From Astropecten irregularis (Eukaryota; Echinodermata; Asteroidea; Paxillosida; Astropectinidae), in NCBI GenBank assembly GCA_963971285.1, contig OZ020250.1:14740499-14804498 (forward strand): a stretch of DNA of 64,000 bases. The letters are read 5' to 3'. This document shows, one piece after another, positions 9,600 through 63,197 of the stretch (the stretch's first letter is position 1; every line of letters starts with the position of its first letter). A program made the position numbers and the translations under genes. The notes below the pieces were generated by a model. That model did no database searches, was not told the origin of the DNA, and worked only from the letters and a program-made list of their open reading frames with translations.

Positions 9600-10278
9600 A
9601 TGGGTAGCGTAATACATTTGATCAGGACAAACATTTTGTTGTTCACTGTTTCATCCACGATCGCAGCACCCATAGGCATATCTGTGTTTTTATCCAATAG
9701 TGTTAGTACTGATGGTAAACCGTCCATTTATTCTTACATTCGTTTACTGCCCCCCTTCGAAATTGCCCAAAATAAGATTTCCCGTCTTGTGGAGACCAAC
9801 CAATATGCCAACTTTTCCCTAATTTTGCATCATTCGCCGACTGGATGTGCTAAAACAGTGAAATACGCCGTCGGCATCTCCGCTAGACTTTTCCTTGACA
9901 ACACCATATCTGCAATTTTCGGACCAACCTGCAGCACCAGTGCTCTGGTTGTAGGCGACGTAGCTGCTTCACTCAACGCTACAATGCTTTCTATGGGTGC
10001 AAATGATCACCAACTGGACGATAAAGCAAGGTATCCTACACTCACCCAAACTGTTTTGAAATCGACAACATGGGTTAACTTCTTCAGAGAACTATGTTAT
10101 CTCTACGGCTGGAAATCTATCATCTTGATCAGGAGGCAATCTGGCTATTTCTCACTTCCTGCAAATGCATTGGAAGATTGTCTTCGAGAGGCTGGAATCA
10201 GGGTAACGATAATATACCTTGATTGGTACACGGAAGATCCCGGACTCGCCCTTGAAGAAGTTGTCACGCAAGGAAGAG
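9600..10278 (+). CDS. Receptor ligand-binding first exon A1 (ANF-receptor/NPR-like)
   Basis: Encodes a signal peptide (about residues 1-22, hydrophobic core ILLFTVSSTIA) and the first lobe of a PBP-I/ANF_receptor ligand-binding domain. Visible landmarks are the beta1 strand PIGISVFLS, the helix FEIAQNKISRLVE, SPTGCA, and FGPTC, which corresponds to the chloride-binding disulfide loop of natriuretic-peptide receptors. These are followed by LTQTVLKSTTWVNFFRELC, YGWKSIILI and EDCLREAGIRVTIIYLDW. Four cysteines sit where NPR-type receptors have two N-lobe disulfides. Sequons are NFS and NAT (SLNATM). The coding exon is 226 codons plus 1 nt and ends AGAG|GTAAGT, a phase-1 donor. The first ATG after the TATA region is used. 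The remaining receptor (second lobe, membrane span, catalytic part) must lie elsewhere. Confidence 0.85.
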
Positions 10279-12391
10279 GTAAGTGCATTTTTACTTGTTA
10301 ATTTCTAGAATTCTCAAACGCGGAAGCACACACCATTGTGCTATCGTATTCACAAGTTGGTTCATGCATTTAGAGAAAAAGTTGTATCCTGCAGTTATCG
10401 GTTTTCGCTCCGATAACAGGAAAGTTTCTCAAAAATGGAAACGAAATGGAATATCAGAAAATCACTCCTCATACCTTTCAACTGGACACTTCCAGATTAT
10501 TTTCTGTAAATATCCTCGAAGTTCAAGTCTTTTCTTTGAAAATATTGTCCTTCATTTACAGGGACACCAATTCTGCTATGTAAACGCGACGTCATGTGTT
10601 TTCACCCCCTTGGCTAAGTGGCAAAGTTCATTGACATCGGAGTAGCAATGGCGCACCAAGTCACTCAAAAACGGCTGGAATATTGTCCTGACTCGATTCT
10701 TCTTACTGGGTCAATTGAGTTTCTTTTAAAAAGGTTCCAAAACAGTCTTGATTCCAAGATTGTGAATTATAGATAATTTATCAACAATATCATGCATGAC
10801 ATATTTAAAGGCAAATAAAATTAAATCAAATTTTTTATCTTGATGCGAAATATTATCACAGGATTTTTCATAATATCTGGCATCATTATGCATATGAGAG
10901 GCCTAAACATGGATACATCAGCTTATCAAAGTAAACATTTAAAGGAGAAAAACAAAACACTGTCACTCCGATTAGAGAAAGACTTTACCACACTTTTGTC
11001 TCATTGGCACGCCATAAAAACCCAGATCGCAAAAGGGTCACATGACCTGCAGTCTGACATCTGAAGAATGAAAGTTGCTTGAGCAGACGACAGTTTAGTT
11101 TGGAATATTTGACCACAGATTGTGTCTTTTATAAACGTTTGAACATTAGCCTTAAAATGCATTAGTAATATACACCCAAAATCACATAGTTTTGTAACTT
11201 TTGAGTATCACTCAGGACTGGAAACTTTATTTTCAACATTCTGAATGTCGGAGATAGCCCTGAGTGTAGTCATCACTTCAGGGATACTGATCACAAAGAA
11301 TCTCTCACGATCTCGCGGTATACGGGAGTCGAATTTGGGGAGCGAAAACACAGGTCGGGTGAAAACACATGACCGGACGATACATACCTACCTTTTGTCC
11401 CAGTCCGTCATTTGTATTGTAGAGTTTAACAATCAAGACATTTTAATTTGACAAAAATTGATAATAGTATTAACAATAAAATCAAGGATGAATACACGAG
11501 TATGTTTCAAGTGCAGCCAAACATCGAGGCCATGTGACTCATTATGCTAGAGACATGGAGTACATGTATTACCCATACACGGCTGATTAATCCTAATCGG
11601 GTGATCCCGTATGCGGTCAGTGTGACGAGAAGCTCATTATTTTTTAGGTAGTACATGTATATAAAATGTAAGGAAATAATTCACACCCTCGGTAGTACAG
11701 TAATTACCTAAAGTTCATTTTTGTCACAGACTAAATCGCATATTTCTTCTCAAACGAACGGAGTTTTGTTGGGATTTATAGCAAAGAGTGAGTATGAAGA
11801 TGTCTGGTTCTTTTTTGTATACATGCCGTACGTGTACGTTGCATGTTAATTATATCTAGATGATTATTTATTATGATTGTGGTTATCCGTGGGGTAGCCT
11901 ATACGTAGTTTTGCCTTGTTTGTAAGTAGATTTACTTTATAATTGGTTGTGGAGGCCAGCCCTATAGAGATAAAAGAGTAATATTATACGCCAAATGGAT
12001 TTACTATAATGGAATAAGGTCTTTGCTTCAATATTGTGTGCCACATAACCTTAATATAATTACAAGACTGTTAAAAACAGAACATAAGGTTTTCGCGAAA
12101 ATGATATGAAATACTTCTCAACCTTATACATACCAAGACGTTTGGTTACGATCTTGTGTTTTAAAAGTGGCCATATTTTGATGTATAAAACTAGTTTGAA
12201 GACTTTGAACTAAAACGAATGTAGAGCAACTATAAAATTGCAATGTTTTCCCCTTGAAGGCATGTCATGTAGCATATGGTGATGTCATGATGACGTCGTT
12301 GCAATCTTTCGATATAACACTACCCGACCTAGACACATACCAAGTTAACTATTTTTTTTTTCATAATACTGTTGTGTGAAGTTTGCCTCTT
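10279..12391. other. Intron/intergenic DNA after A1
   Basis: No acceptor followed by receptor-like coding sequence was found. The ORF at 10838-11064 has no family features. From about 12090 the sequence is paralogous to 30470-30740 (shared blocks such as AAAAGTGGCCATATTTTGAT). This gives an uninterrupted comparison for the transposon that follows. Confidence 0.5.
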
Positions 12392-12735
12392 TACACTCTA
12401 AAAACTCCTGGGTCAATTTTTTAACCCTTTCTCCGGGTCAAAAAAAATTGACCATTTTCCGGGTCAGTCTAATGACGTCACTGCATGGTACCCTCTTGTG
12501 ATTGGATAAGAAGTGGTCACATGACGCGTCCGTGCAATCTCTCGGGTCAAATGTTTAACCCTTTCTCCGGGTCAAAATAAAATTGACCATTTTCCTGGTC
12601 AGTTTTATGACGTCACTGCATGGTACCCTCTTGTGATTGGATAATAAGTGGTCACATGACGCGTAAGCGCCAAGCACAAGACCACAAACATTTTCTCCTC
12701 AACTGCCATTTTGTCAACCGTACTGTCGCCGCAGG

Positions 12736-12800
12736 ATGGATTGGCGTCAAAGAAAAACTTCAGGCTTGGAAATTGAGAGAATACTAAGACATATTTCAAG
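12736..12800 (+). CDS. Possible first coding exon of the 4.4-kb transposon
   Basis: ATG at 12736 opens a short frame (MDWRQRKTSGLEIERILRHI...) that stops being needed at a donor-like AAG|GTATGT (12801). It lies just inside the left subterminal repeats, where a transposon gene would start. The sequence is too short to assign to a family. Confidence 0.35.
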
Positions 12801-13246
12801 GTATGTAACCTTTATGTATGTATAATATACAGTAACACTAGTGGAGTGGATGGAAAAAATTACAACTTTGGGGTAGGACCAATAAACCAAAATTTGAAAT
12901 TGACAGAACTGAAGCTGGGCTTCCGTTACACCATGGATGGTTACACGTACAATATACTATAGGCCTAACGTTAGGTCCTACAGTACAGTACAGTTATAAC
13001 ATTCCATTCCGCTAACAGGGTTTGCAAGGAATCTGGAGGAATTAACTGCATGGACGTGTCCAGAAATATCCGATATTTATCCTGTTTTTAGGAATGGTGT
13101 CTCTGATGCGTGACTCTTCATACAATTTCTATAGTATTAACTATTAATTATAGGGCCTAGGGGGCCCTAGTACATGCAAGCATCAGGAAATAATCATACA
13201 AACATCATAGGCCCTAGGCATATTACTGCCTATACAGTATACTGCA

Positions 13247-14471
13247 TTGCTAGTCAGGCTACTGAACTGTGGGGTCCCCCAAGGCTCTTGTTTGGGTCCT
13301 CTTTTGTTTACTATTTATGCGTCTGAGATTTTTGATATAGTTGATAAACACCTTCCCAATGTTCATTGTTATGCTGATGACACCCAGCTCTATTTGTCTT
13401 TTAAACCTGGTTCAATTGTCACTCAGGCAGCAGCCATTAAGGCTATGGAAAAATGCATAAGTGACATAAGAGCATGGATGATTCATGATAAATTAATGAT
13501 TAATGATGACAAAACGGAATTTCTCATTATAGGAACCAAACAACAACTAGCTAAACTTTCAGTTGAGAACCTTAAAATTGGTAGTAGCAGTATTGTTCCA
13601 AGTACATCGGTTAGAAATCTGGGAGCTTGGTTTGACTCGAATCTGTGTATGAGTACTCATATTACTAAGGCTTGTTCCATATCTTTTTTCCACCTTCATA
13701 ATTTAAGACGTATCAGTAAGTTTTTGTCCAAAGATTCATTAGTTACCCTTATTCATGCGTTTATTACCAATAGACTTGATTACTGTAATAGTCTTTTGTA
13801 TGGCTTACCCAACTCTGAATTAGCTAAGTTACAACGAGTTCACAATGCAGCTGCTAGGCTTGTTAGCAACACGAAAAAATTTAACCATATATCACCAGTA
13901 CTTCGTCAGTTACATTGGCTGCCTGTGAAATTCCGTATTGATTTTAAAATTCTCCTTTTAACTTTTAAAGCCTTGCACGGTTTGTCCCCAAAGTACATTA
14001 GCGATCTTGTTGTTGTGAAGAAGGCATCCATTTACGGTTTACGCTCTAACAATAAATTGTATCTAGATCATCCTAAAAGCAGAATGTCAAAAACACTGGG
14101 GGGACGTTCTTTTCATTGTGCAGCCCCTGAACTGTGGAATAAGTTGCCTGCTGATATCCAGCAATCACAATCCATTGCTATTTTTAAACGTAAAGTAAAG
14201 ACTTATCTTTTTAAACTCGCTTTTTATTAATTGTGATGTAAATGTTTAATATTGTATTTGTAAATTTAGATATAACCTCCTTGTTTTGTATTATTTCTCT
14301 CTTCTAAGTTTTAACTAGTGTATTATTACTTATATGACATTTTAAAGTTGTAAACTTAAATGCTGTTTTTTATTTTTAACTAAATTTATTTGAATTTCAT
14401 GTAATGCGCGATCGATCATTGTCATGAAGACCGCGCAATACAAATGGTAATTATTATTATTATTATTATTG
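13247..14471 (+). mobile_element. 5'-truncated LINE (non-LTR retrotransposon), reverse transcriptase C-terminal half
   Basis: A 327-codon frame runs to TAA at 14228-14230. It begins within the reverse transcriptase at motif GVPQGSCLGPLLF, continues to the catalytic YADDTQLY, then the thumb (AWMIHDKLMINDDKTEF) and the typical tail LNRLDYCNSLLYGLP-like, QRVHNAAARLV and LHWLPV segments of CR1/L2/Jockey-related LINEs. The 5' part (endonuclease and early RT) is absent, as in ordinary 5'-truncated insertions. About 220 bp of 3' UTR ends in an (ATT)n tail at 14452-14470. The frame is uninterrupted, so insertion is recent. It sits in an intron of the surrounding transposon. Confidence 0.9.
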
Positions 14472-14834
14472 GAACCGATTCCCCAGTACAGTGTGTATAT
14501 GTACACATGACCTTGGTCACATAGGGTCACATAGTAGTAGTTGTACGCAGATTATGCACAATGCAATCTCTATGCATCAGACAACTTGAAACTACACTTT
14601 ATCCAAACAAATTCACTTTCCTCAAGTCAGACAACTAGGACATGCAGCTCAGAGCATATAATCATTGGCTACGCCTATATGTCAGGTAATACACTGTAAC
14701 TACTGCAGTAAGCGGGTCATCATCCTGTTTGTACTGCATATACGTGGGGTGATGGGTACACTGTAGGCCTATTTTCTTGTCTTAATCCTTGGAGCAACTT
14801 TGCATTGATTTCCAATTTTCTTTTGTTTTCACAG

Positions 14835-14959
14835 AAAATGCTGTCGACAAAGAAAGCTTCATGCTTCTGGACTCTTGCATTGAGTCCTTAAAAGAGCTCA
14901 TCCCCCAAGTAGGACCCCACATGCGCTTCATAAAGAATCTCAGAGAATGTCAGGAGAAG
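14835..14959 (+). CDS. Transposon-internal exon, SAM-like segment
   Basis: A pyrimidine tract ending in ACAG (14834) precedes ENAVDKESFMLLD...ESLKELIPQVGPHMRFIKNL, which ends at GAGAAG|GTACAT. The LKELIP..GP..RFI..L pattern resembles the last helix of SAM-type domains found in transposon-derived animal proteins. Function in the element is unknown; the exon may mediate oligomerisation. Confidence 0.4.
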
Positions 14960-15164
14960 GTACATGTGCAGTCTTTGTAGTCTTTTGTTTTTTACCTGTG
15001 CTAAGCTAGTGTGCATCCGCCATCCGATATCAACTCATCTTGTTTCGTCTTGGCTAACCACTATTTTTCTGCTGTTACTGAATTTGGTAATTTTTGGAGG
15101 TAATTTTTGGCTGTGAAAACCCTCAATGAAATACCCATATTTGTTTCTTGATCAACCTCCTCAG

Positions 15165-17760: not shown

Positions 17761-17763
17761 TAA

Positions 17764-21901: not shown

Positions 21902-22577
21902 ATGAATAAGTTAATTCTAGTCTTCGGAAAATGCATTTTGTTGTTGACTGTTTCTTCGGCGATGGCAACACCAATAGGCATCGCCGTGTTCTTGGCTAAT
22001 GCTACTGTCGGTGTTAGGCCTTCGACTTATGCTTATCCACGTTTATTACCGGTCTTCGAAATTGCCCAAAATGAGATTTCACGCCAAGTGGAGAGCGGCC
22101 AGTTCGCCAACTTTTCCCTTGTTTTGCATCATTCGCCGACTGGGTGTGCTAGAACAGTGAAATACGCCGTCGGTATCTCCGCTCGACTTTTCCTTGACAA
22201 CACCATATCGGCAATTTTCGGACCAACCTGCAGCTCCAGTGCGCTGGTTGTAGGCGATGTAGCTGCTTCACTCAACGCCCCAATGCTTTCTATGGGTGCA
22301 AATGATCACCAACTGGACGATAAAGCAAGGTATCCTACACTCACCCAAACTGTTTTGAAAGCGACAACATGGGTTAACTTCTTCAGAGAACTCTGTTATC
22401 TCTACGGCTGGAAATCTATCATCTTAATCAGAAGGAAATTTGGGTTTTTCTCACTCCCTGCAAATGCATTGGAAGATTGTCTTCGTGAGGCTGGAATCAG
22501 GGTAACGATAATATACCTTGATTGGTACACTGAAGATCCCGGACTCGCCCTCGAAGAAGCTGTCACGCAAGGAAGAA
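21902..22577 (+). CDS. Receptor ligand-binding first exon A2
   Basis: 225 codons plus 1 nt, ending AGAA|GTAAGT. Signal peptide is residues 1-22 (predicted cleavage after SSAMA). The ligand-binding N-lobe follows: beta1 at 25-31, a variable loop at 32-46 (NATVGVRPSTYAY), helix at 50-65, and cysteines at 82, 110, 165 and 193. The conserved GPTC is at 107-110. Sequons are N33 (NAT) and N70 (NFS). It is the undamaged counterpart of A4 in the other segmental duplicate, and the closest relative of pseudogene A9 including leader sequence. Reading through the donor would add an intronic tail to 22723. The receptor class (guanylate-cyclase-linked or clearance-type) cannot be decided from this half-domain. 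Confidence 0.85.
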
Positions 22578-23708: not shown

Positions 23709-23712
23709 TTAA

Positions 23713-24068: not shown

Positions 24069-24072
24069 TTAA

Positions 24073-27820: not shown

Positions 27821-28499
27821 ATGGGAAGAATTTCGCCAATCATCTTCGAAAAATGCATTTTCTTGTTGACAGTCACTTCCACGATTGCTAAACCGATAGG
27901 CATTGTTGTGTTTTTTACCAATAGTAGCTACAATGGTGTACCGTCGATGTTATCTTTCCAGCGGTATACGCCTGCCTTCGACCTTGCCCAAATTGAAATC
28001 TCGCGTCGTGTCGAAAGTGGCCTATACGCAAATTTCTCCTTGGATGTAACTTATTCAATGACCGGGTGTCCGAGGACTGTGAAATACGCCGTGGGTGTCG
28101 CCGCTAGACTTTTCCTTGGAAACGCCGTGTCGGCATTTTTCGGACCAATCTGCAGTAGCAGTGCGCTAGTTGTAGCTGACTTGGCTGCTGCACTCAACGC
28201 ACCAATGCTGTCCTTCCTCGCAAACGATCACCGACTGAACGATCCAGACACATATCCAACGCTGACACAAACTGTCTTGAAATCAACACCATGGGTTTAC
28301 CTCTTTAAGCAACTTTGTTTCCTCTACGGTTGGAAATCCGTCGTATTAATGAGAGTGGACTATGGCTTTTACGCACTTCCTGCTAATGCCCTGGAAGACT
28401 GTCTTCGTGAGGCGGGAATCAGGGTCACTGTTATACACCTTGGCTGGTTCGCTGAAGATCCAATGCTCTCCCTTGAAGAAGCTGCTTTGCATGGCCGTA
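27821..28499 (+). CDS. Receptor ligand-binding first exon A3
   Basis: 226 codons plus 1 nt, ending CGTA|GTAAGT. This is the most divergent intact type A copy. It carries PIGIVVFFTN, a loop NSSYNGVPSMLSF with its own sequon, FDLAQIEISRRVE, YSMTGCPRTVKYAVG, FFGPICSSSALVVADLAAALN, LANDHRLNDPDTYPT and YGWKSVVLMRVDYGFYALP. It closes with EDCLREAGIRVTVIHLGWF. The GPxC disulfide loop and the four cysteines are kept. Flanks on both sides are paralogous to those of A5, yet the 3' third of the two exons differs strongly (see findings). It is likely functional by frame and donor integrity. Confidence 0.83.
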
Positions 28500-35567: not shown

Positions 35568-36243
35568 ATGAATGAAGTAATTTTAGTCTTTGGAAAATGC
35601 ATTTTGTTGTTGACTGTTTCTTCGACGATTGCAACACCAATAGGCATCGCTGCATTTTTGTCAAATAATACTGTCGATGGCAAACCTTCGATTTATTCTT
35701 ATCCACGTTTATTACCAGTCTTCGAAATTGCCCAAAATGAGATTTCTCGCCGAGTGGAAAGCGGCCAGTTCACCAACTTTTCCCTTGTTTTAACGCACTC
35801 ACCTACTGGATGTGCAAGAAAAGTGAAATACGCCGTCGGTATCTCCGCTAGACTTTTCCTTGAAAACACCATATCGGCAATTTTCGGACCAACCTGCAGC
35901 TCCAGTGCGCTGGTTGTAGGCGACGTAGCTGCTTCACTCAACGCCCCAATGCTTTCTATGGGTGCAAATGATCACAAACTGGACGATAGAGCAAGGTATC
36001 CTACACTCACCAAAACTGTTTTGAAATCGACAACATGGGTTAACTTCTTCAGAGAACTCTGTTATCTCTACGACTGGAAATCTATTATCTTAATCAGAAG
36101 GAAATAGTACTATTTCGCACTTCCTGCAAATGCATTGGAAGACTGTCTTCGTGAGGCTGGAATCAGAGTAACGATAATATACCTTGATTGGTACATTGAA
36201 GATCCCGGACTCGCCCTTGAAGAAGCTGCCACGCAAGGAAGAA
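35568..36243 (+). pseudogene. Type A exon A4 with one in-frame stop
   Basis: Same length and donor (AGAA|GTAAGT) as A2, of which it is the duplicate. Signal peptide, FGPTC loop, cysteines and the last 45 codons are all intact. The single lesion is TAG at 36105-36107 (after LIRRK), where relatives have F, S or Y; TAT to TAG would explain it. The loop reads NNTVDGKPSIYSY, with an N-linked site. The loss is recent, or this is an allelic null or a sequencing error. The rest of the frame after the stop (36108-36243) is still open and conserved. Confidence 0.8.
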
Positions 36244-38389: not shown

Positions 38390-39071
38390 ATGGGAGGAAT
38401 CTCGCCAATCGTCTTTGGAAAATGCATTTTGTTGCTGACAGTTTCTTCCACGATCGCTAAACCGATCGGCATAGTTGTGTTTTTGGCCAATAGTACAAGC
38501 AGTGATGGTGCACCGTCAATGTTATCGCTCGTCCGTTATACTCCTGTTTACGACCTTGCCCAAAATGAAATCTCGCATCGTGTTGAAAGTGGCCTATACG
38601 CAAACTTCTCCCTGAATGTAACCTATTCACCGACCGGGTGTGCGAGGACCGTGAAATACGCCGTGGGTATCGCCGCTAGACTTTTCCTCGAAAACTCCGT
38701 ATCGGCAATTTTCGGACCAACCTGCAGCTCCAGTGCCCTGCCTGTAGGTGACGTAGCTGCTTCACTCAACGCGCCAATGCTGTCCTTCCTTGCAAACGAT
38801 CACCAACTGAACGATCCAAACAGATATTCGACGATGACACAAACTGTCTTGAAATCAACACCATGGGTTTACTTCTTCAAGGATCTTTGTTTCCTCTACG
38901 GTTGGAAATCCATCATCTTAATCAGAAGGCAATCTGGCTTTTTTTCATTTCCTTCAAATGCATTGGAAGATTGTCTTCGTGAGGCTGGAATCAGGGTAAC
39001 GATAATATACCTTGATTGGTACACTGAAGACCCCGGACTCGCCCTTGAAGAAGTTGTCACGCAAGGAAGAA
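38390..39071 (+). CDS. Receptor ligand-binding first exon A5 (chimeric)
   Basis: 227 codons plus 1 nt, ending AGAA|GTAAGT. Signal peptide about 1-24 (LLLTVSSTIA), then PIGIVVFLAN. The loop NSTSSDGAPSMLSL has a sequon, followed by YDLAQNEISHRVE and YANFSLNVTYSPTGC (two further sequons, NFS and NVT), FGPTC, and LANDHQLNDPNRYST. The first two thirds follow A3. From YGWKSIILIRRQSGF to the donor it instead follows the A1/A2/A6 sequence almost base for base, while the intron after it returns to A3-like sequence. The frame is intact, so the chimera is probably functional. Confidence 0.85.
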
Positions 39072-42700: not shown

Positions 42701-43376
42701 ATGGATGTTGTTACACTCTTGTTTGTGAAATACATTTCACTATTGCTTGTTTCCTCCACATTTGCGACACCCATAGGCATATCTGCGTTTTTAGCTGATG
42801 TAAGAAGTGATGGCCGACCGTCCACTTATTCCTACGTTCGCTTACTACCCGCCTTCGAAATTGCCCAAAATAAGATTTCCCATCTTGTGGAGACCAACAA
42901 ATATGCCAACTTTTCCCTAATTTTGCATTATTCGCTGACTGGATGTGCCAGTACAGTGAAATACGCCGTCGGTATCTCCGCTCGACTTTTCCTTGACAAC
43001 ACCATATCGGCAATTTTTGGACCAACCTGCAGCTCCAGTGCGCTGGTTGTAGGCGACGTAGCTGCTTCACTCAACGCTACAATGCTTTCTATGGGTGCAA
43101 ATGATCACCAACTGGACGATAAAGCAAGGTATCCTACACTCACCCAAACTGTTTTGAAATCGACAACATGGGTTAACTTCTTCAGAGAACTATGTTATCT
43201 CTACGGCTGGAAATCTATCATCTTGATCAGGAGGCAATATGGCTTTTTCTCACTTCCTGCAAATGCATTGGAAGATTGTCTTCGTGAGGCTGGAATCAGG
43301 GTAACGATAATATACCTTGATTGGTACACGGAAGATCCCGGACTCGCCCTTGAAGAAGTTCCCACGCAAGGAAGAG
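42701..43376 (+). CDS. Receptor ligand-binding first exon A6
   Basis: 225 codons plus 1 nt, ending AGAG|GTAAGT. It begins MDVVTLLFVKYISLLLVSS, a clear signal peptide, then PIGISAFLADVRSDGRPSTYSYVRLLPAFEIAQ split by the variable loop. It shares LVETN(K/Q)YANFSLIL and SLNATM with A1, including the extra NAT sequon. Over the last ~420 nt the two differ at only about ten positions, yet the introns diverge immediately after GTAAGTG. One substitution changes the near-terminal Val to Pro (EEVPTQGR). No lesion is seen. Confidence 0.85.
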
Positions 43377-44284: not shown

Positions 44285-45040
44285 GGCACGTTCTCACACA
44301 CCAAAAAGCGCAACTATTTTGGGTCGCACTCCAAATCGCGACCCAAATAGTCGCGCTTTTTGTTGAGTTCCCACGGCCAAAAAAACCGCGACCCAAGTAG
44401 TACCGGTACGATTTCTATCAAACTGCCCGTGCGCAGTGAAGCGTGAAGTTGGCATGCATCCTGCGCTAAACTCGCGGGCCCGCCTTGCATGATGGGATAT
44501 AAAAAACCGGTATTGTTTTGGTGCACCGTTCACACAGCAAATAATCGCGACTATTTGCAAAAAAGACGCACTATTAGTGCGATTTGGAGTGCACTCCAAA
44601 TCGCACTATAATAAGGCACGTTCTCACACACCAAAAAGCGCGACTATTTTGGTCCCACTCCAAATCGCGACCCAAATAGTCGCGCTTTTTGTTCTGTTCC
44701 CACAGCCAAAAAAACGCGACCCAAGTCGTACCGGTACGATTTCTATCAAACTGCCCGTGCGCAGTGAAGCGTGAAGTTGGCATGCATCCTGCGCTAAACA
44801 CGCTGGCCCGCCTTGCATGATGGGATATAAAAAAACGGTATTTTTTGGTGCATCGTTCACACAGCAAATAATCGCGACTATTTGCAAAAAGACGCACTAT
44901 TAGTGCGATTTGGAGCGCGCTCCAAATCGCACTAATAGTCGCGATTATATGTGTCCCCACACAAATAAGCGCAACTATTTGGGTCGCGCTGCAAATCGCG
45001 ACCCAAATAGTCGCGCTTTTTTGGTGTGTCAGAACGTGCC
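44285..45040. mobile_element. Palindrome-rich MITE with internal tandem duplication
   Basis: Outer termini GGCACGTTCTCACACACC and inverse (GGTGTGTCAGAACGTGCC), flanked by TA. A unit of about 330 bp is repeated head-to-tail (44285-44613 and 44614-44942). Each repeat holds a strong palindrome (GCGATTTGGAG/CTCCAAATCGC) and copies of AAATAGTCGCGC with its inverse. A decayed relative lies at 48885-48960. Minus-strand frames (44294-45140) are produced by the palindromes and are not genes. Confidence 0.85.
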
Positions 45041-45991
45041 TACTGTTGACAGTTGGTGGTGACTGGAGAAATTCGGTCCTTTGTGAGTTATGACAGGGAA
45101 TTTCTGAGACCTGTACTGTGCACCGCATCGTAAAGCACAAATTCCCTATTTTTCACTAATGAGTTCACCTTCAAACGGCCTTTTCAACACACAAAAGGGA
45201 AAAATCCAGAACATAAACAACTCCAGTTGAGTTGATTAAAAGAGCCCATGGCAGAACTACAAAGCATTATGAGCACAACCAACGAAGGAAAATAAAATCC
45301 CACAAGAAATTAGTTTCCCCTTTATTTTCATAAAGTCGACCATCGCCCCTAGATTAAATGAATACAACTATGCCCCGTTTGTGGTATATTCATGGCAATA
45401 GCATAGTAATTATTACTCCCATTCATCACCATTATATTGACTGTATAATGGATATCTATTATGACACTATGGTATTCACGTATAGCTCCGTAGATAAAAT
45501 GATCCCTATTGAAATAGGCCGGGAATAGAGTATGAAAATAAACGGAGGCATTACTGCTACCATACCAACAAGGCTAGCATCTGACGTATCCTCGGCCGTT
45601 CCAATCACTGGAAGTCCTTGCCACTCTGCTGAGGAAACGTGCATTCCTTTATTTTCTAAAAAATGTAGGTGTCGCCGTTCCGTAAAATATACTCAGATAT
45701 AAACACCGGTGCGGCGAAGCCACGCCCCAATCTGTGACCAATATAATTAGTTTTACTTGAATTCGATGTCCATACTTTTGTCCTTTTTTGTTAATAACAT
45801 GCAGTATCCTCTGAAGTATAAATACATGGGGAGTGATTTAAATATCGTCACTGCCGTCAGTTTTCTTAAGGCGCCTCGAAGGAAAAGCAGCGTAATACGT
45901 GCAAAGTGTATAAGATGCCAATGGTATTTCTGATAGATACTGCGTATCCAAAGAATCATCTCTGAAAACGAATGATACCATTAATACAGTC
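45041..45991. other. Intergenic DNA and candidate upstream region of A7
   Basis: No gene is supported. GGCGAAGCCACGCCCC at about 45713 resembles a motif before A8 (near 60773) and may be a CACCC/GC-type promoter element. TATAAATACATGG lies near 45818. Confidence 0.35.
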
Positions 45992-46658
45992 ATGGGCATT
46001 TTTACACACTTATTGGTAAAAGGCATCTTTTTGTGGACTGTTTCTTCCGCAATGTCAACGCCGATAGGCATAGTCGTGTTCTTATCAGATGATGCAACGC
46101 CGTCCATTTTATCTCAGACACGATTAGGACCGGCTTCGGAAATCGCCAAAAATGAAATCTTGCGTCGTGTAGAAAACGGCCAGTTTGCCAACTTCTCTAT
46201 AAACGTACTTTACTCACCAACGGGTTGTACAAATAAGGTGAGATATGCAGTTGGTATCGCTGCTAGACTTTTCCTTGAAAATACCGCATCGGCAATATTC
46301 GGACCCGTCTGCAGCTATGCTGCCCCAGTTGTAGCTGACTTGGCTGCTGCACTCAACGCGCCAATGCTTTCCTTCGTTGCAAACGATCACCAACTAGACA
46401 ACAAAATAAGGTATCCTACACTTACCCAAACTGTTTTGAAATCATCACGATGGGTTTACTTTTTTTTTTAACTTTGTTATCGCTATGATTGGAAATCCAT
46501 CACCTTGTTGATAGAGGAGCATTACTTGTTTAGCTTCATGTGAAACGCGCTGGAAGATTGCCTTCGTGAGGCGGGAATTAAGGTAACGATTATACATCTT
46601 AGTTGGTACACTGAATATCTCGGGCTTGCCCTTGAAGAAGCTGCCACCCAAGGTCGTA
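45992..46658 (+). pseudogene. Type A exon A7 with two in-frame stops
   Basis: 222 codons plus 1 nt. MGIFTHLLVKGIFLWTVSS signal, PIGIVVFLSDDATPS, SEIAKNEILRRVE, SPTGCTNKVRYAVG, FGPVCSYAAPVVADLAAALN and NDHQLDNKIRYPT are all present. After WVYF a T-run of ten leads to TAA at 46469-46471, and a second stop (TGA, 46541-46543) follows SFM. The original frame otherwise continues to ALEDCLREAGIKVTIIHLSWY and CGTA|GTGAGT. FGPVC followed by YAAPV is the copy most like vertebrate NPR (GPGCVYAAAPV) at this loop. The two stops make it inactive as read. Confidence 0.82.
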
Positions 46659-51948: not shown

Positions 51949-52612
51949 ATGGTGTCTCTCGCAGTATTTTTTTGTTTGGTGTCCGGGTATTTGATTTCAT
52001 ATTCAGCTGCAGATCAGACGACATTGAGAGTGGTGTTCTTTTTCTCCAAAGAACGGCGCGTGTTTTTGTACTCGGTAACACGTCTTTCACCAGCCGTGCA
52101 GATAGCTCTTGACACCATATCTGACCGGGTAGAGTGGGGAGAATATGCAAACTTCACTCTTGAATGGTTTGTCTCTCACTCCGGCTGCGATTCTCCTCAG
52201 CGGACGTCCGCAGGTGAAGCTCCCGAATTCTACTACCGTGATAATGTGGTAGCTTTCTTCGGGCCGGCCTGCAGTGGAAATATCATAAGCGTCGGGGACT
52301 TCGCTGCCATTCGGAACATCCCAATTCTCACAGGCAGCGGCACTGCCGTTGATCTTGAAGACAAGGACAGGTACCCAACAATGACTAACTTGATCTACAA
52401 GACTGGCTCCATGGCAAACATGGTGGTCGGTCTGTTCCACCGATTCGGTTGGTCAACATGTGTACTGCTTCATTACGGATATGGGTACAAACGCGCTTCT
52501 GATGCGTTGACAGTGGCATTCCGTGCTGCGGGGGTACGATTGTATACATTGTACATGCAGAGGAACCCGAACTACGTTGACATTCTGAACGAAGCTTCAA
52601 TGCACAGTAGAA
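51949..52612 (+). CDS. Receptor ligand-binding first exon B1
   Basis: 664 nt, 221 codons plus 1 nt, ending AGAA|GTAAGTGA. ATG at 51949 gives MVSLAVFFCLVSGYLISYSAA, a signal peptide cleaved near residue 21. The N-lobe of an ANF_receptor domain follows: beta1 VVFFFS at 28-33, helix at 47-62, Cys80 paired in position with Cys108 of FFGPAC, DFAAIRNIPILTG, DRYPTMTNLIYKTGSMANMV, FGWSTCVLLHYGYGY and AFRAAGVRLYTLYMQ. Sequon NFT at 68-70. The layout resembles NPR receptors more closely than type A does (LTAG/ILTG and DKDRYPTMT segments). Intron retention would add only SK before TGA, giving a secreted half-domain. An in-frame upstream extension lacks ATG and is not used. Confidence 0.87.
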
Positions 52613-53229
52613 GTAAGTGAATCATTCGAGATATATCATTATTTGACTTTCAAAAAAGAGTTGAAATTAAAAAATTGTTGTATGTAATGGGTTTAAGTAT
52701 TGTCTTCGGAGGTTTACCTGAAAAGAAATGTACCTGAAGCCCTCTGAACGTCCCCTGCTGAAAGTAGTAATTCCTACTCATTAGGCGAATCATTTTTAAT
52801 GGTTTGGTTGTCATCATGGCCTGAAAGATTATTGCACATGATGAGATTACAGCTATTATATTTCCAAACTTATAATGATTCTGAGCTTTCTACAAAGGTG
52901 AGGTTGGTATAAGTTGAGATTTGAGTCCTTAATTGGTGTGTAGCGAGACGCTAGCACACTGGCTTTAACACAGGGTCTGAACACCCAGTTTTGTTGATTC
53001 TTTTTAATTGCCGCACATTTCTCAGTCGTAATTTAGAAAATATGTAAACAACGTGAATTGATATGAAACAGAAGTCTTAATTAATTCGAAGCCCTATTAT
53101 GATCGAACGTATTTTGAGTTACGAAGGATACTCCATCGTATCTTACGTAGGGCTGCAATGCATCCTGAGTCCTAGGATTAAAAGAAAGGTACCGTGACTT
53201 GGTGAAATCGAACCCAGGTCTATTAGGGT
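52613..53229. other. Intron/intergenic DNA after B1
   Basis: The first 150 bp are conserved among all B units. A partial GTCGATTTCAC-family MITE lies at 53085-53215 (GAAGCCCTATTATGATCGAA ... GGTGAAATCGAAC). No coding sequence. Confidence 0.55.
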
Positions 53230-53452: not shown

Positions 53453-53997
53453 TGGACATACTCTTTTTGTTCTAGTCAGGAAAGTCGATGGCTCTCCAGA
53501 TGGTCACTTTTCGTGCTCCATACTGGTCGTAAATTGGCCATTGGCTTGTCTGCCTTTCGTCCTCCATAAGATTATCCTAAGTCATTTCAAGAAGGGTTTA
53601 ATTGTGTATAATTATGTGCTTTATGGTTTCTTTATAAAGCACTTAGCTCAAGTGGCACACAGTCCGATTGTTTCTTGTAGAAGTTACACAAGTTAACGAA
53701 TGGTTGGCGCAAGCCGAGCTACGTGCTGAGTTTCGTACTGTTTCAGATTAGAATGGGCTAAATTGCTTCGAACAGAGGATCATCCGTATACGTTAAGTAG
53801 CACTGTGCCGGTGGTATAAGTGAGATACGCTGAATAAAACCCATACGCAATGACGAAACACAACCAAATAGAAAACGTCGTCAGATACTTAAGAATGACT
53901 GGTGAACTGCAGTGAATCACTCGAACTATTGGCCCAGCTCAGAAACAGTCCTCACGTCTCCGTTCTCATGTTGAGAGATCAACAGAGTGGGTTGAAC
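53453..53997. promoter_or_regulatory. B2 upstream region
   Basis: The tandem-unit sequence (AGCTCAAGTGGCACACAGTC near 53644, GTTTCAGATTAGAATGGGCT) leads into the conserved leader (AGATACTTAAGAATGACTGG near 53883). The TATA-like run is weaker (TGAATAAAACCC). Confidence 0.45.
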
Positions 53998-54661
53998 ATG
54001 GTATCTCTCGCAGTAGTCCTTGGTATGGTGTCTGGGTACTTGATTTCATATTCAGCTGCAGATCAGACGACATTGAGAGTGGTGTTCTTTTTCTCCAAAG
54101 AACGGCGCGTGTTTTTGTACTCGGTAACACGTCTTTCACCAGCCGTGCAGATAGCTCTTGACACCATATCTGACCGGGTAGAGAGGGGAGAATATGCAAA
54201 CTTCACAATTGAATGGTTTGTCTCTCCCTCCGGCTGTGATGTCCCCCAGCGGACGTCCGCAGGTGAAGCTCCCGAATTCTACTACCGTGATGATGTGGCA
54301 GCTTTCTTCGGGCCGGCATGCAGTGGAAATATCATAAGCGTCGGGGACTTCGCTGCCATTCGGAACATCCCAATTCTCACAGGCAGCGGCACTGCCGTTG
54401 ATCTTGAAGACAAGCGCAGGTACCCAACAATGACTAACTTGATCTACAAGACTGGCTCCATGGCAAACATGGTGGTCGGTCTGTTCCACCGATTCGGTTG
54501 GTCAACATGTGTACTGCTTCATTACGGATATGGGTACCTGCGCTCTTCTGAAGCATTGATCACGGCATTCCGTGCAGCGGGGGTACGATTGTATACGGTG
54601 TATATGCAGAGGAACCAGAACTACGTGGACATTCTGAACGAAGCTTCAATGCACAGTAGAA
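53998..54661 (+). CDS. Receptor ligand-binding first exon B2
   Basis: 664 nt with the same phase-1 donor. Differs from B1 in the signal peptide (VVLGMVSG), at FVSPSGCDVPQ (against FVSHSGCDSPQ), DDVAAFFGPAC, and at the second-lobe entry GYLRSSEALITAFR with YTVYMQRNQNY. The beta1 loop SKERRVFLYS is identical to B1. An additional in-frame ATG 30 nt upstream (53968, MLRDQQSGLN...) exists only in this copy; the conserved MVSL start is preferred because all four copies have it and it begins the hydrophobic segment. No lesion. Confidence 0.87.
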
Positions 54662-55765: not shown

Positions 55766-56161
55766 AATGTTTACCAAAGCTTTACGGTGGTCTCTATATA
55801 GAGCATTTTAATAGCTCGAGTGACGCACAGTCAGATTGGTTCTCGTTGAAGTTACACGAATCAACGAATGGCTACCGCGCGGGGAGCTCCTTGGTAAATT
55901 GCTTTCTGTTTCAGATTAGCATCAGCTAAACATACTACGGACAAGAGGATACGTATAGCATTGTGTGATATAAGTGATATACACAAAGGAAACTATTTAT
56001 AAAACCCACAATGACGAAACACAACTGAATAGAAAAAATCGCCAGATACTTTAATAAGGACTGGAAGGCTGCAGTTATTGTCACTCGAACTGTAGGCTTT
56101 GCTCAGATTCAGTCCTCGTGTTATCGTTCTCGTGATGATAGATCAACAGCACGGGTTGAAC
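55766..56161 (+). promoter_or_regulatory. B3 upstream region
   Basis: Contains the unit sequence (AGCTCGAGTGACGCACAGTC), a good TATA-like box (TATTTATAAAACCC at about 55997) and the conserved leader from AGATACTTTAATAAGGACTG to the ATG. Confidence 0.5.
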
Positions 56162-56825
56162 ATGGTATCTCTCGCAGTATTCTTTGGTTTGGTGTCCGGG
56201 TGCTTGATTTCATATTCAGCTGCAAATCAGACGGCATTCAAAGTGGTGTTCTTTTTCTCACAAGGACGGCGTGCGGTCTTGTACTCGGTAACACGCCTTT
56301 CACCAGCCGTGCAGATAGCTCTTGAAACCATATCTGACCGGGTAGAGAGGGGAAAATATGCAAACTTCACAATTGAATGGTTTGTCTCTAACTCCGGCTG
56401 CGATGTCCCTCAGCGGACGTCCGCAGGTGAAGCTCCCGAGTTCTACTACCGTGATAATGTGGTAGCTTTCTTCGGGCCGGCCTGCAGTGGAAATCTCATA
56501 AGCGTCGGGGATTTCGCTGCCATTCGGAACATCCCAATTCTCACAGGCAGCGGCACTGCCGTTGATCTTGAAGACAAGGACAGGTACCCAACAATGACTA
56601 ACTTGATCTACAAGACTGGATCCATGGCAAACATGGTGGTCGGTCTGTTCCACCGATTCGGTTGGTCAACATGTGTACTGCTTCATTACGGATACGGGTA
56701 CCTGCGCGCTTCTGATGCGTTGACAGTGGCATTCCGTGCTGCGGGGGTACGATTGTATACATTGTACATGCAGAGGAACCAGAACTACGTGGACATTCTG
56801 AACGAAGCTTCAATGCACAGTAGAA
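56162..56825 (+). CDS. Receptor ligand-binding first exon B3
   Basis: 664 nt, intact, donor AGAA|GTAAGTGA. Distinguishing residues are SGCLISYSAANQTAFKV, the beta1 loop SQGRRAVLYS, ERGKYANFTIEWFVSNSGC, and GYLRASDALTVAFR. NQT at the mature N-terminus and NFT are N-linked sites. From GEAPEFYYRDNV through GSMANMVVGLFHRFGW it is identical in protein to B1 except for one residue (Ile to Leu after ACSGN). This suggests homogenisation with B1. Confidence 0.87.
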
Positions 56826-58050: not shown

Positions 58051-58329
58051 ATGGCATTTCTTCGAACCTTAGTGCGTTTGACGAGATTTCTTTCAGATCT
58101 CATCTGCCCGAAGGACACCTCTTTCAAGTCTTATATTATTTGGTCCATGATGTCAGACGACAAAGATAGCCACTCTGTATTCAGAGACTCGCGTTATACC
58201 TGCAGTAGAGTTACCTCTGAAGACCAAAGAGCACCGTATACGGAGTCCGGAGGCCGTCTATTTTTCTACAAAACGAAAACCAATGTTTTTCCAGATGGTC
58301 ACTTTTCGTTGTCCATAAGATTATCTTGA
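58051..58329 (+). pseudogene. Type C ligand-binding exon remnant C3
   Basis: MAFLRTLVRLTRFLSDLICP, then YIIWSMMSDDKDSHSVFRDS and YTCSRVTSEDQ, ending at TESGG. There the homology is cut and an unrelated tail (RLFFYKTKTN...) runs to a stop. The break falls at the same landmark as in C2. All three C copies are therefore truncated, at different depths. Confidence 0.7.
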
Positions 58330-58685
58330 GTCCTTTTAAAGGAGGGATAGATTGTTTATACATGTGAGTGCTTTATGTTCTCCTTATAGAGCATTTAGCT
58401 CAAGTGGCACACGGTGCGATTGTTTCTCGTAGCAGTTTAACTAATCAACGAATATATGCCGCAAGGAAAGCTACTTGCTGAGTTCCATACTGTTTCGGAT
58501 TAGCATCAGGTAAACGTACTACAGACAGGAGGATACGTATGTATAGCAGCAATTTATGGTGTAAGTGAGATGTACCTGTTCTGGGACTGGTGAGCTGCAG
58601 TGCATCACTCGAACTGTAGGCTTTGCTCAGAAACAGTCCTCTCGTTTCCGTTCTCTTGTTGAAGAATCAGCAGAACGGGTTGAAC
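58330..58685 (+). promoter_or_regulatory. B4 upstream region
   Basis: Unit sequence AGCTCAAGTGGCACACGGTG near 58399, then a shortened leader: the AGATATTTAAGAAGG block is replaced by GAGATGTACCTGTTCTGGGA, while CTGGTGAGCTGCAGTGCATC onward is kept. Of the four B promoters this one is the most altered. Confidence 0.45.
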
Positions 58686-59349
58686 ATGGTTTCTCTCGCA
58701 GTTGTCTTTGGTTTGTTGTCCGGGTATTTGATTTCATATTCAGCTGCAGATCAGACGACATTCAAAGTGGTGTTCTTTTTCTCGGATGGAAGACACGCGG
58801 TCTTGTACTCGGTAACACGCCTTTCACCGGCCGTGCAGATAGCTCTTGACACCATATCTGACCGGGTGGAGAGGGGAGAATATGCAAACTTCACTCTTGA
58901 ATGGTTTGTCTCTCACTCCGGCTGTGATGTCCCTCAGCGGACGTCCGCAGGTGAAGCTCCCGAGTTCTACTACCGTGATAATGTGGCAGCTTTCTTCGGG
59001 CCGGCATGCAGTGGAAATCTCATAAGCGTCGGGGACTTCGCTGCCATTCGGAACATCCCAATTTTCACAGGCAGCGGCACTGCCGTTGATCTTGAAGACA
59101 AGCGCAGGTACCCAACAATGACTAACTTGATCTACAAGACTGGCTCCATGGCAAACATGGTGGTCGGTCTGTTCCACCGATTCGGCTGGTCAACATGTGT
59201 ACTGCTTCATTACGGATATGGGTACCTGCGCGCTTCTGAGGCATTGATCACGGCATTCCGTGCAGCGGGGGTACGATTGTATACGGTGTATATGCAGAGG
59301 AACCAGAACTACGTGGACATTCTGAACGAAGCTTCAATGCACAGTAGAA
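58686..59349 (+). CDS. Receptor ligand-binding first exon B4
   Basis: 664 nt, intact, donor AGAA|GTAAGTGA. Beta1 loop SDGRHAVLYS, FKVVFFF as in B3, LEWFVSHSGCDVPQ, RDNVAAFFGPAC, NIPIFTGSG (Phe where others have Leu), GYLRASEALITAFRAAG and YTVYMQRNQNY as in B2. It is therefore a mosaic: its start resembles B3 and its end B2. NFT sequon retained. Confidence 0.87.
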
Positions 59350-61014
59350 GTAAGTGAATCATTCCAGATTTATATTTGACTTTCAAAATAGAGTTGAAGT
59401 TTAAAAAAATGTGTCGTCTGTAATGGGTAAAGTTGTCTTCGGAATTTTACCTGCAAAGAATTGTATCTGGTTGTGAAGCGCGCTAAACTTTCTCTGCTGA
59501 AAATAGTAATTCCTATTAATTAATCAGTATAGATGAATCCTTTTGCGATACTATGGGTGTCATTGTGGTCTGAACGATTATTGCACTCATTCGAGCGATT
59601 AATTGGAGGGATAACTAGAGGACTTATAAAAAGCTATAGTGGCACACGGTACGATTTTAGCTGGTAGAAGTTACACAACTCAACGAATTATTGACGCAAG
59701 GGCAGCTACGTGCTCGGAGAACGGCATACAGAATGATTGTGTTTAGCTCAGTAGATATCTGTCGGTTGTTTGTTTTATGAAATCTAGAATAGATTCTGCC
59801 TTACTGTTCGGCCCACTGACTTGACATTTCAGACAGGCAAAAAATGGCGGCAATCTGAATTTTTGCAAGATACAAACTATCTTTTATAAAGAAAAAAAAA
59901 AGAGAAAATAAGAAAGTGTTTGAGCTCTCCGGGTGGGCACAAAACATGTTTCTTAATTAGTGTGATACATGTACTTGGAATCTATTAAGATTAACATAAT
60001 ATTAAAAGGTTGACACAGTCCTATAAGTGTCCTATTGTACTATAAATTGCTTGGCGTTAATTTTGGATAAGGATGAGTTTAGAGTTATTTGCAATGTCAC
60101 TATAACGATGTTTTATCTCCACTACTATCCTCAATAAAACATTCGATTGCCTTTATGGGTATAGTATGAGTTTCAACAACGTGCTGAAACGAAGTATATT
60201 ATTCAATTCCCATTTCCCAAGCGAGCATGTCTTTACCTGCACATGCTCTATTGTAATGATGCTAATATTAGAAACCTGTCTGATACCAACAATGGAGGGG
60301 TTACATCTGCTCCACTGTCCACATTGATACTTCCAATTTCTTGGCTATTTTCGTGCGACTTCCATTCTCTATTTCGTTACACAAGCTCGGGGCATTCTGT
60401 GCAAATCATGTGAATACAATGTCATATTTCTTCCACGATAAATGGCGGTGACGCGACAGCATTTTTGCAAGCCAATAGCAGTTAGCCACATTGGTATACG
60501 TATCTTCAAAAGCCAATTGTATTTCGTAAGTTTCACCTGCTAAGTCCGATTGTATTAATCATCCGTACGTATATAGCCGCAGTCAGCTGTATTCATTTGG
60601 CAATGTGCTTTCGTTTTCTGATATTGGCTTTAGAGAGGTAGATAAGACATATGTCGTTTTGTGTATTCAGGACAAAAAGACCCACAAAATCAATTACGCA
60701 CGGGGGAATTTCGGAAACGTCTATTTATCGTGATCAAGGATATAATACAAAATAATTAGGACGGTTGGGTAGGCGAAGAAGCCACACCCACAGTCGGTGA
60801 TATCATGTGGCGTAGACTTAGTGTGGTCGTCATATTGTTTATGCATGTGCACATTATAAGATTGTTAATAATTGTGGACAAAATGGTATATAATGTGACG
60901 TTCTAGGAACCGAAGAGGATAACAGTAATACAATTTTGTTATAATTGTCTGGCTGAAATTCTTTGGTGGAATCACTTTTTTAAGAAACCCTCTTGAAATA
61001 ATATTCAATACAAA
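59350..61014. other. Spacer after the B array, partial fifth unit at 59608-59710
   Basis: Unit sequence (AGTGGCACACGGTACGATTT ... GAAGTTACACAACTCAACGA, GGGCAGCTACGTGCTCGG) recurs once more and then stops without leader or exon, marking the 3' edge of the tandem array. Further on, GGCGAAGAAGCCACACCCAC at about 60773 resembles the A7 upstream motif. No gene. Confidence 0.5.
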
Positions 61015-61326
61015 ATGGTTATTGCAGCAAACTTGCTTGGAAAAGGTATTTTGTTTTTAGTAGCTTCATCAGCGATCGCTGCACCAATAGGTATAGCTGT
61101 GTTTTTATCTAGTACTGTTCTATTATTAAATATTAAGTATTTATTCTTACGTTGGCTTACTACCGGTCTTTGAAATTGCTCAAAATGAGATTTCTCGTCG
61201 AGTTGAGAGCGGCCAGTTCGCCAACTTCTCCCTTTTTTTAACGCACTCACCGACTGGATGTGCAAGAAAAGTGCGATACGCAATCGGTATCTCCGCTAGA
61301 CTTTTCCTTGACAACACCATATCGGC
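61015..61326 (+). pseudogene. Type A exon A8, truncated and frameshifted
   Basis: Starts MVIAANLLGKGILFLVASSA and PIGIAVFLSSTV, then an indel near 61115-61140 shifts the frame (stop TGA at 61171-61173). In the shifted frame the family continues: SYVGLLPVFEIAQNEISRRV, then GQFANFSLFLTHSPTGCARK, and on to ARLFLDNTISA. It is cut at ATATCGGCG, where the sequence jumps to the A2-type leader (TTTATATTGAGGGAG). The GPxC loop and all after it are missing. Confidence 0.8.
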
Positions 61327-61365
61327 GTTTATATTGAGGGAGTATTAAGTACAATACAAATCACC

Positions 61366-62028
61366 ATGAATAAGTTAATTCTAGTCTTCGGAAAATGCAT
61401 TTTGTTGTTGACTTTTCTTCGGCGATGGCAACATCAATATGCATCCCGTGAGTCTTGGCTAATGCTACTGACTTATTCTTATCCACGTTTATTACCGGTC
61501 TTCGAAATTGCCCAAAATGAGATTTCACGCCGAGTGTAGAGCGGTCAGTTCGCTAACTTTTCCCTTGTTTTGCATCATTCGCCGACTGGATGTGCTAGAA
61601 CAGTGAAATACGCCGTCGGTATCTCCGATCGACTTTTCCTTGAAAACACCGTATCGGCAATTTTCGGACCAACCTGCAGTTTCAGTGCTCTGGTTTTTGG
61701 CGACGTAGCTGCTTCACTCAACGCGCCAATGCTTTCTATGGGTGCAAATGATCACCAACTGGACGATAAAGCAAGGTATCCTACACTTACCCAAACTGTT
61801 TTGAAATCGACAATATGGGTTAACTTCTTCAGAGAACTCTGTTATCTCTACGGCTGGAAATCTATTATCCTGATCAGAATTCAAATTCAATATTTCTCAC
61901 TTACTGCAAATGAAATGCAGTGGAAGATTGTCTTCGTGAGGCTGGAATCAGAGAAACGATAATTTACCTTGATTGGTACACTGAAGATCCCGGACTCGCC
62001 CTCGAAGAAGCTGCCACGCAAGGAAGAA
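61366..62028 (+). pseudogene. Type A exon A9, multiply disrupted
   Basis: A copy of A2 with its leader. Lesions are a 1-bp loss in the signal peptide (ACTTTTCTTCGG where A2 has ACTGTTTCTTCGG), small deletions after it, a stop TAG at 61537-61539 (RRV*SGQF), and a ~5-bp insertion at 61910-61920 (AAATGAAATGCAGTGG). This insertion shifts EDCLREAG out of frame. The donor has changed to GTGAGT. Long parts of the frame remain clean (61570-61900 with FGPTC, DDKARYPTLT, YGWKSIILI), so decay is fairly recent. Confidence 0.82.
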
Positions 62029-62984
62029 GTGAGTGCAACTGTTCTGTTTCCCTGCTTGGACAATTACAGCAAAGTCATTTTAGAAATAATGGGTTTCCCA
62101 GCACTGGCAATCCATATCAACCAATTACGATATTGTTCACTTCCAAGTAAACGAAAGATAAATTCAGTGGTCGAAATTAACAATATTAATCAGCTAAAAT
62201 TCAAGTTACGTGTACTATCCCACTAACAAAATATAATGCCTGGCCGGCGCGAAGCTCGAAATAAAGAAAAATCACATCTGAAGATCTGTCCATAAATCTT
62301 TCAATCAAAATGTCTTCTTTCGTTTGAGATTTCCAACGAACCAATTTACATACGTGTACCTCTTCTTCGGTCGCATGTTGTGTGATTAGCGTTGTAATCT
62401 GATTGGCGACAAAATGGCCGCAAATTTAACTTAATGAGCGATAGTTTCAAAGAGACGTTTGCACATTTTACACTTTCGCTTCTCAGTATTACATACTTAT
62501 TTGAATCTCCAGTACGGTACGTACCAAGTGTGCTCAAATATTTTGTTGTGTACTGGTCGCAATTCCGAATTAAGTTTGGGAAAACAGCCTCAAGTTTGAT
62601 CAGTTGAAAGTTGTCTACTGCGATGAAAATCAGTTATGAACTAACACAGTATTTTATTTAAAATTTAAAGTTTTGTTTTGTTTTGTCACGTCACATTATT
62701 AATTTCTTAATTTCTTTTTGAACCATAAATGGTGCGCCATTTAGCTGACCCTTTATAAACCCCCATAGATCCTGCTTTGCAATTTCCAGTGAAAATCGAA
62801 ATCCTAATAGATTCATAGCTTAAATCTACACGCCCAAATACAATTAGAATGACATAACGCGGTGACATAACGTTGCTTGCTGACATCCTATTGGCCATAA
62901 AGTCATACCGTGAAATAATATAGTTGCAGTGCGCATTGTGAAAGCCACTCCTCCACCTCGAGCCCCCCATCTTCCCCTTAAGTC
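62029..62984. other. Intergenic DNA, no gene seen
   Basis: No receptor exon, RNA or clear repeat. Frames at 62346-62537 (-) and 62707-63024 (-) lack domains; the latter overlaps the D fragment on the opposite strand. Confidence 0.4.
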
Positions 62985-63197
62985 TGAACCGATGGTATCG
63001 TTCTTCGAAGAACTGTGCTTTCATTTTGCTTGAAAAACCATCGTTTTGTTGACTGAATACGATCGCTACTACGGCCGTGTCGGAGATACCTTACGACAAG
63101 GTCTGCGCGAGGCGAATATCCGATATGTCATACTCTACCTTGAGAGGGATATTGAAAATCAAACTCCTATGCTTGAAGAAGCTGTACATAATGGTTG
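62978..63197 (+). pseudogene. Type D ligand-binding exon fragment (3' half)
   Basis: In one frame it reads LKSEPMVSFFEELCFHFA, a TGA stop where relatives have Trp (GW), then KTIVLLTEYDRYYGRVGDTL, REANIRYVILYLERDIENQ and MLEEAVHNG before a stop. This aligns along its length with LKSTTWVNFFRELCYLYGWKSIILI ... LREAGIRVTIIYLDW ... LALEEAVTQGR of type A. The donor position is mutated (GAA|ATATAA). It differs from types A, B and C, so a further subfamily once existed. Confidence 0.72.

Follow-up and report, generated by a model that had tools for sequence, protein, structure and literature searches.

Insect gustatory receptors cross the membrane seven times, and one of them, Tribolium Gr214, reportedly uses alternative N-terminal exons. 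At loci of this kind a chemoreceptor is diversified by alternative N-terminal exons set on shared C-terminal exons; a bark beetle gustatory receptor joins unique N-terminal exons to shared C-terminal exons, and 30 splice variants are given for Tribolium Gr214 and 17 for Anoplophora Gr99 (passages of PMC6720082). Tandem variable first exons followed by one common downstream exon set are also found in UGT1 and the vertebrate clustered protocadherins, and in UGT1 each first exon has a specific promoter and hypervariable regions lie at the acceptor pocket (parts of PMC1885805 and PMC3325998). Receptor guanylate cyclases are described as diversifying by whole-gene duplication, with 21 genes in one nematode clade (a passage of PMC1435932). 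Here, the genome of the sea star Astropecten irregularis was studied around C14:14740499-14804498, a stretch of 64 000 nucleotides termed the window. The region very probably holds one receptor guanylate cyclase gene, the first exon of which has been duplicated into a tandem array, with at least 28 usable fronts spliced to a single body. The layout is that of UGT1 and the protocadherins, but the protein family and the phylum are others, the protein being a receptor enzyme whose ligand-binding domain is split in its middle by the junction; unlike the insect gustatory receptors, the product would be a single-span cyclase with a variable half ectodomain.

Coordinates are given in window numbering, continued past 64000. 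The assembly comprises 475.7 Mb in 168 contigs, and the window was analyzed together with 40 kb upstream and 160 kb downstream. A tblastn search with five window exons, repeated with intact exons as queries, located 44 copies or fragments of the first exon over 124 kb (9600-133653), all 44 on the plus strand, and the last array exon ends at 133654 (donor 133655). At 28 of these places, 19 of them beyond the window, the exon is intact, being open from an ATG to the donor. The intact exons measure 221-232 codons across the whole array (n = 28), all 28 end in splice phase 1 at a GTAAG, and each carries a hydrophobic 10-residue stretch (Kyte-Doolittle mean of at least 1.6) beginning within residues 1-30. 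The leader is judged from hydrophobicity alone, and in several exons the highest-scoring stretch starts at residue 20 or beyond and may lie past the leader. Apart from six additional fragments, 38 places were inspected for a donor, and 33 of them have GT(A/G)AG at the equivalent position; the three exons scanned against Pfam (9600, 27821, and 51949) each matched ANF_receptor above the curated cut-off. In its intact homologous first exons, which lie in tandem on one strand and have start codons and donors at equivalent points, the locus resembles a variable-first-exon cluster.

An earlier note on this DNA had described a one-strand array of at least nine intact exons and several broken ones over 54 kb. 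The strand was borne out, but the array is longer than that description, running on to 133654 with 28 intact exons. The nine exons named (donors 10279, 22578, 28500, 39072, 43377, 52613, 54662, 56826, and 59350) all close ATG-initiated frames of 221-231 codons in phase 1 at GTAAGT, and the broken ones were found as well, the 17 places in the window being made up of these nine, three broken exons with a donor (35568, 45992, and 61030) and five fragments. Pairs of intact exons are 25-93% identical in protein sequence (median 37%). They fall into the local clades A (9.6-43 kb and 68.6 kb), B (52-67 kb), C (71-89 kb), D (101-119 kb), and E (123-127 kb), with the single exons 94382, 130868, and 133655 outside them, and this grouping by position is as expected from repeated local duplication. 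Two other assignments of the copies were rejected: internal coding exons, because 28 of 28 have their own ATG and an early hydrophobic stretch, and separate genes, because a second-half exon is absent between the copies in a tblastn search with the constant part.

Extension of the analysis 3′ of position 64000 revealed a single receptor guanylate cyclase downstream of the last array copy, in agreement with the shared body that had been predicted there. Its 21 constant exons, on the contig of the array and all on the plus strand, have AG/GT borders and stay in frame to a stop at 178945. The borders were assembled by hand from open frames and splice sites, and one exon, E8b (154098-154160), was recognized by comparison with Patiria. 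Exon E2 (135987-136132) opens with a phase-1 acceptor, 2.3 kb past the last array donor and 125.7 kb past the first; E3-E6 (142439-148603) encode the remainder of the ligand domain, E7 (151243-151327) the membrane span, E8-E14 (152967-169254) the kinase homology domain, and E15-E21 (169770-178945) the cyclase and the stop. When read by eye, E7 shows one long hydrophobic stretch, that is, a single membrane span. A spliced model of 1016 residues without E8b matched the Pfam families Guanylate_cyc (3.1e-69), ANF_receptor (4.7e-46), and PK_Tyr_Ser-Thr (1e-36), so that ectodomain, kinase homology and cyclase domains of the NPR/GC-A type stand in one protein, and the earlier suggestion of a guanylate cyclase held. 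The motifs FFSDIVGFT, VETIGDAYM, and CLFGDTVNTASRM are present; such cyclase motifs carry the metal-binding aspartates and the guanine-selecting Glu/Cys.

In a genome-wide search with E2-E8, this set returned 73-98% identity and every other match 32-65%, with no second close E2-E8 set in the genome. A cyclase-domain search, with all 107 candidates scored, placed one cyclase near the array. No constant exon was detected inside the array by tblastn with the constant part, a lone hit at E 8.8 being taken as chance, which agrees with the earlier statement that no receptor exon lies between the copies. The arrangement is therefore a single downstream constant set with a matching acceptor, again as in a variable-first-exon cluster. 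A long minisatellite-like repeat, open on both strands (SESLPSKSE and DLDGNDSDG units), was noticed at about 149983-151062, in the intron before the membrane-span exon.

The proposed gene would have 22 coding-exon positions, the first of them multiplied in tandem. Every transcript would begin with one out of 28 or more intact first exons, each coding for the leader plus the initial half of the ligand-binding domain, and the phase-1 donor of the chosen exon would join the sole exon-2 acceptor. The products would share the second half of the ligand domain, the membrane span, the kinase homology domain and the cyclase, giving many ligand specificities that all report through cGMP. Exon choice would be by private promoters, one at a time, and each front would have a peptide or chemical ligand.

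The relationship between this locus and other sea-star sequences was studied using the assembled protein as a query. The eight best matches to the 1016-residue query without E8b are sea-star proteins (best 7999 candidates scored). Two of the relatives are the Patiria miniata isoform models X3 (P0001) and X2 (P0002), for each of which a contig of 8 323 591 bases is given. Their C-terminal 814 residues, including two (SR) ahead of the junction, are identical, while their fronts of 222 residues (X2) and 172 residues (X3) are 32% identical, and the point at which they switch is the exon 1/2 junction of the present locus. Alternative fronts on one constant part are thus supported in Patiria miniata by the annotated sequences. 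P0002 also matches full-length GC-A chains (E 6.5e-243), with the same domain order, and the last residues of exon 1 align with QKGR within QKGRIVYVCC in NPR1. Vertebrate NPR1/GC-A has one first exon, unlike the many found here.

In a maximum-likelihood tree the X2 front grouped with exon 133655 at 100/97, the X3 front with clade D at 89/86, and an Acanthaster front, of 68 residues only, with the group of clade E and 130868 at 93/85. A second tree, to which 11 relatives were added and from which two rows were removed, gave 95/80, 87/76, and 89/85 for the same groups, the X3 front and clade D lying inside a larger group of B, D, and 94382 at 98/91. The tree program issued a long-branch warning for exon 133655 and X2 in both trees; with two more relatives added, the group of four that contains these two holds at 100/100 in the second tree. 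By direct comparison the X2 front is 46% identical to exon 133655 and at most 35% identical to any other window exon. Since the X2, X3, and Acanthaster fronts join different exon lineages, at least two first-exon lineages appear, from these trees, to predate the split of these sea-star species. The Asterias proteins have similar fronts on differing bodies, and the shared-body design was not confirmed in Asterias. In Asterias amurensis, P0005 and P0006 have fronts identical at 184 of 205 residues and bodies that clearly differ after the junction, on contigs of equal size, a pattern that hints at exchange of fronts between whole genes.

The regions upstream of the first exons were compared clade by clade. 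In clade C, about 300 bases upstream are conserved (0.52-0.80), whereas the downstream intron falls to about 0.4 after 30 bases. In clade D, TATATAA stands at −116 to −129 in five of six copies; clade B is conserved both upstream and downstream, and clades A and E have little upstream conservation. Because of this clade-wise conservation, including the TATATAA of clade D, private promoters are likely, though no universal motif was found. The earlier note had given every exon its own promoter, and that idea gains partial support, from clades B, C, and D, and little from A and E. The same variable and constant parts could instead be governed by splicing choice, with a distant promoter, a shared noncoding 5′ exon and mutually exclusive array exons. 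The lack of a promoter motif common to all copies would suit such a scheme, as would a CTCAG stretch ahead of the ATG that, by eye, is kept in four of five clade B copies. By eye, though, no acceptor is conserved ahead of the ATG across clades B, C, and D, in clade C the conservation lies upstream and not in the downstream intron, and clade D has its TATATAA; UGT1 first exons have specific promoters (part of PMC3325998). Splicing choice is accordingly regarded as unlikely, though it is the strongest of the alternatives.

The array could also consist mostly of decaying duplicates, with use limited to the exon closest to E2 (donor 133655) and a small number of others, and the remainder a by-product of tandem duplication. 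In favor of this, 16 of 44 places are not intact. Against this stand the 28 intact exons and the median pairwise dN/dS within clades, which is well below 1 (A 0.32, B 0.37, C 0.56, D 0.56, and E 0.44, the last from one pair), although individual pairs in clade D go up to 0.99. In simulation, an exon under neutral mutation remained open in at most 15% of runs, with divergences chosen near half the observed dS and indels ignored, and the X3 front of Patiria miniata belongs with lineages far from 133655. Decay of most copies is therefore considered improbable. As judged from codon substitution, purifying selection acts on the intact exons of the array, change being focused on two loops.

It is very improbable that the copies are stand-alone genes for short secreted half-domain proteins: short reading frames do run through the donor, some stopping a few codons later (e.g., HSRSK and a stop at 52613), and stand-alone frames of 220-276 amino acids occur in public assemblies, but 33 of 38 copies have the donor at the equivalent position and an in-phase acceptor follows, half a domain would lack the remainder of its sheets in the predicted structure, Patiria miniata models join such fronts to a receptor body, and the public frames may be gene-caller products on exon DNA. 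The public proteins in question, 11 of 220-276 residues, were returned by a search with 13 of the 28 exons, and RSK or QSK stands near the donor point in all 11, as would result from translation through an A|GTAAG donor. A search with one clade B front returned four proteins.

The structural setting of the junction was explored with an AlphaFold2 model of P0002 built on a 33-row alignment (mean pLDDT 76.7, about 85 over the ectodomain; pTM 0.45). Foldseek matched its ectodomain to NPR-A 1dp4 and NPR-C 1jdn with TM scores by target of 0.82 and 0.86, respectively. In this predicted structure of the Patiria relative, exon 1 corresponds to strands 1-7, and the junction lies just ahead of a strand in mid-domain, so that each exon would supply half of a binding domain and would have to be compatible with the one shared other half. 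The earlier note had placed the second lobe in the shared downstream exons; exon 1 is not exactly one lobe, however, and covers most of lobe I and the first units of lobe II. A cysteine pair at positions like NPR-A 164/213 (LCYLYGW ... ALEDCLREAG) was noted by eye as complete in clade A and absent in clades B and D; clades C and E keep only the first cysteine, which could leave a free cysteine.

Variation along the exon peaks at loop 1, after strand 1 (NPR-A about 7-19), and at loop 2, after strand 6 (about 154-168). Each loop comes after a strand of the parallel sheets, which in this fold face the inter-lobe cleft. Pooled dN/dS was 0.66 for loop 1, 1.07 for loop 2, and 0.41 elsewhere; the loops were selected after the variation profile had been seen, and the pairwise counts are not independent. 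By clade, the loop 1/loop 2 ratios were 0.65/1.01 (A), 0.31/0.33 (B), 0.67/0.76 (C), 1.0/2.2 (D), and 0.48/no changes (E), so the loop signal comes from A, C, and D. Loop 2 falls in the NPR-A segment 154-169, in which a docking study names several residues as peptide contacts (part of PMC9699598).

Several points weigh against the proposal of one gene with many usable fronts. The evidence at the present locus is genomic sequence and not RNA from the same species; at that genomic level the array, the compatible constant part, the phases, the intactness, the single body and the constraint are established. The Patiria miniata isoforms are gene models from public annotation, and the X3 front is 59% identical to clade B and 60% to clade D, leaving its exact lineage unsure. 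For the exon farthest from E2, intron 1 would be as long as 125.7 kb. The 28 upstream stretches yielded no shared promoter motif, and 9 of the 28 contain TATAWA, compared with 18% of background windows. The clade B loops evolve no faster than the remainder of the exon. Finally, the NPR-A contact positions taken from a docking paper (18 of 24 usable) were not clearly enriched in within-clade variation (permutation p 0.45); in that version Cys164 was one residue off, and re-anchoring on Cys164 gave p 0.07.

What is known already is receptor diversification by alternative N-terminal exons, and the insect gustatory receptor precedent lowers the novelty of the present array. The novelty lies in the phylum, in the protein family, which is that of a single-span receptor enzyme, and in a junction within the ligand-binding domain; no description of a receptor-cyclase first-exon array was found in the open-licence literature. 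One gene seems to gain many ligand specificities by multiplying half a ligand-binding domain, with the signaling body kept single. The locus offers a test of how sea stars distinguish peptides or chemical cues, and a natural system for first-exon choice outside the protocadherins.

The receptor cyclases of echinoderm sperm include the speract, resact, and asterosap receptors. Echinoderm receptor cyclases on sperm are receptors for egg peptides, and exons go unmentioned in the main text of the two papers (PMC1435932 and PMC6787079, in part). The function of the Astropecten gene could be a sperm response to egg peptides, or chemosensation. A further idea, put forward tentatively and thought doubtful, is that of a repertoire, in which each cell, a sperm or a sensory neuron, would turn on one or a few of about 28 exons, receptors would mix as dimers, and the two loops (beta1-alpha1 and beta6-alpha5) would set ligand identity, perhaps for egg-peptide or pheromone recognition. 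Because receptor cyclases act as dimers, a single gene could, by coexpression, give as many as 28 x 29 / 2 = 406 kinds of dimer. Such a repertoire would be a cGMP counterpart of protocadherin or odorant-receptor choice.

Within the window the array occupies 9600-64000 on the plus strand, continuing outside to 133654 and then to the 21 constant exons. The intact exons of clade A, each with a phase-1 donor, lie at 9600-10278 (226 codons, GTAAGT; ANF_receptor E 3.7e-17), 21902-22577 (225 codons), 27821-28499 (226 codons; ANF_receptor E 3.4e-16), 38390-39071 (227 codons), and 42701-43376 (225 codons). Those of clade B, also with phase-1 donors, lie at 51949-52612 (221 codons; ANF_receptor E 6.1e-17), 53968-54661 (other ATGs are present and the start may be 53998), 56135-56825 (with another ATG, the start may be 56162), and 58686-59349 (221 codons). 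Three broken exons on the same strand keep a donor: 35568-36243 has an in-frame TAG (donor 36244), 45992-46658 has two in-frame stops (donor 46659), and 61030-62028 is interrupted, as seen from tblastn and examination of the donor. A 3′ fragment at 62956-63195 (plus strand) has no GTRAG donor that could be found. Two open frames were noticed between first exons, one of 261 residues at 13445-14230 on the plus strand, which by eye resembles the end of a non-LTR retrotransposon reverse transcriptase, and one of 184 residues on the opposite strand at 44574-45128.

A second, small array was detected on the minus strand of C14, with four stand-alone lobe exons near 583617, 605224, 618563, and 621630. 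All four have an ATG and a phase-1 donor, and they are about 20-28% identical to the main ones by tblastn. E2-E5-like exons at 556-534 kb and cyclase exons at 475 kb follow them, and the three sets are inferred to belong to one gene; this region (C14:475-622 kb) was viewed in three 10-kb pieces. That a small and distantly related array lies on the chromosome of the main one suggests that the stand-alone front-exon design is no isolated case. Elsewhere, six places on C14 and three further contigs each show, among the matches listed, one first-half ANF_receptor match near one cyclase (115 of 244 ANF_receptor candidates scored). A tandem cluster of ANF_receptor open frames of about 700 residues was also observed at C18:17.53-17.64 Mb, one of which resembles a class C GPCR by eye.

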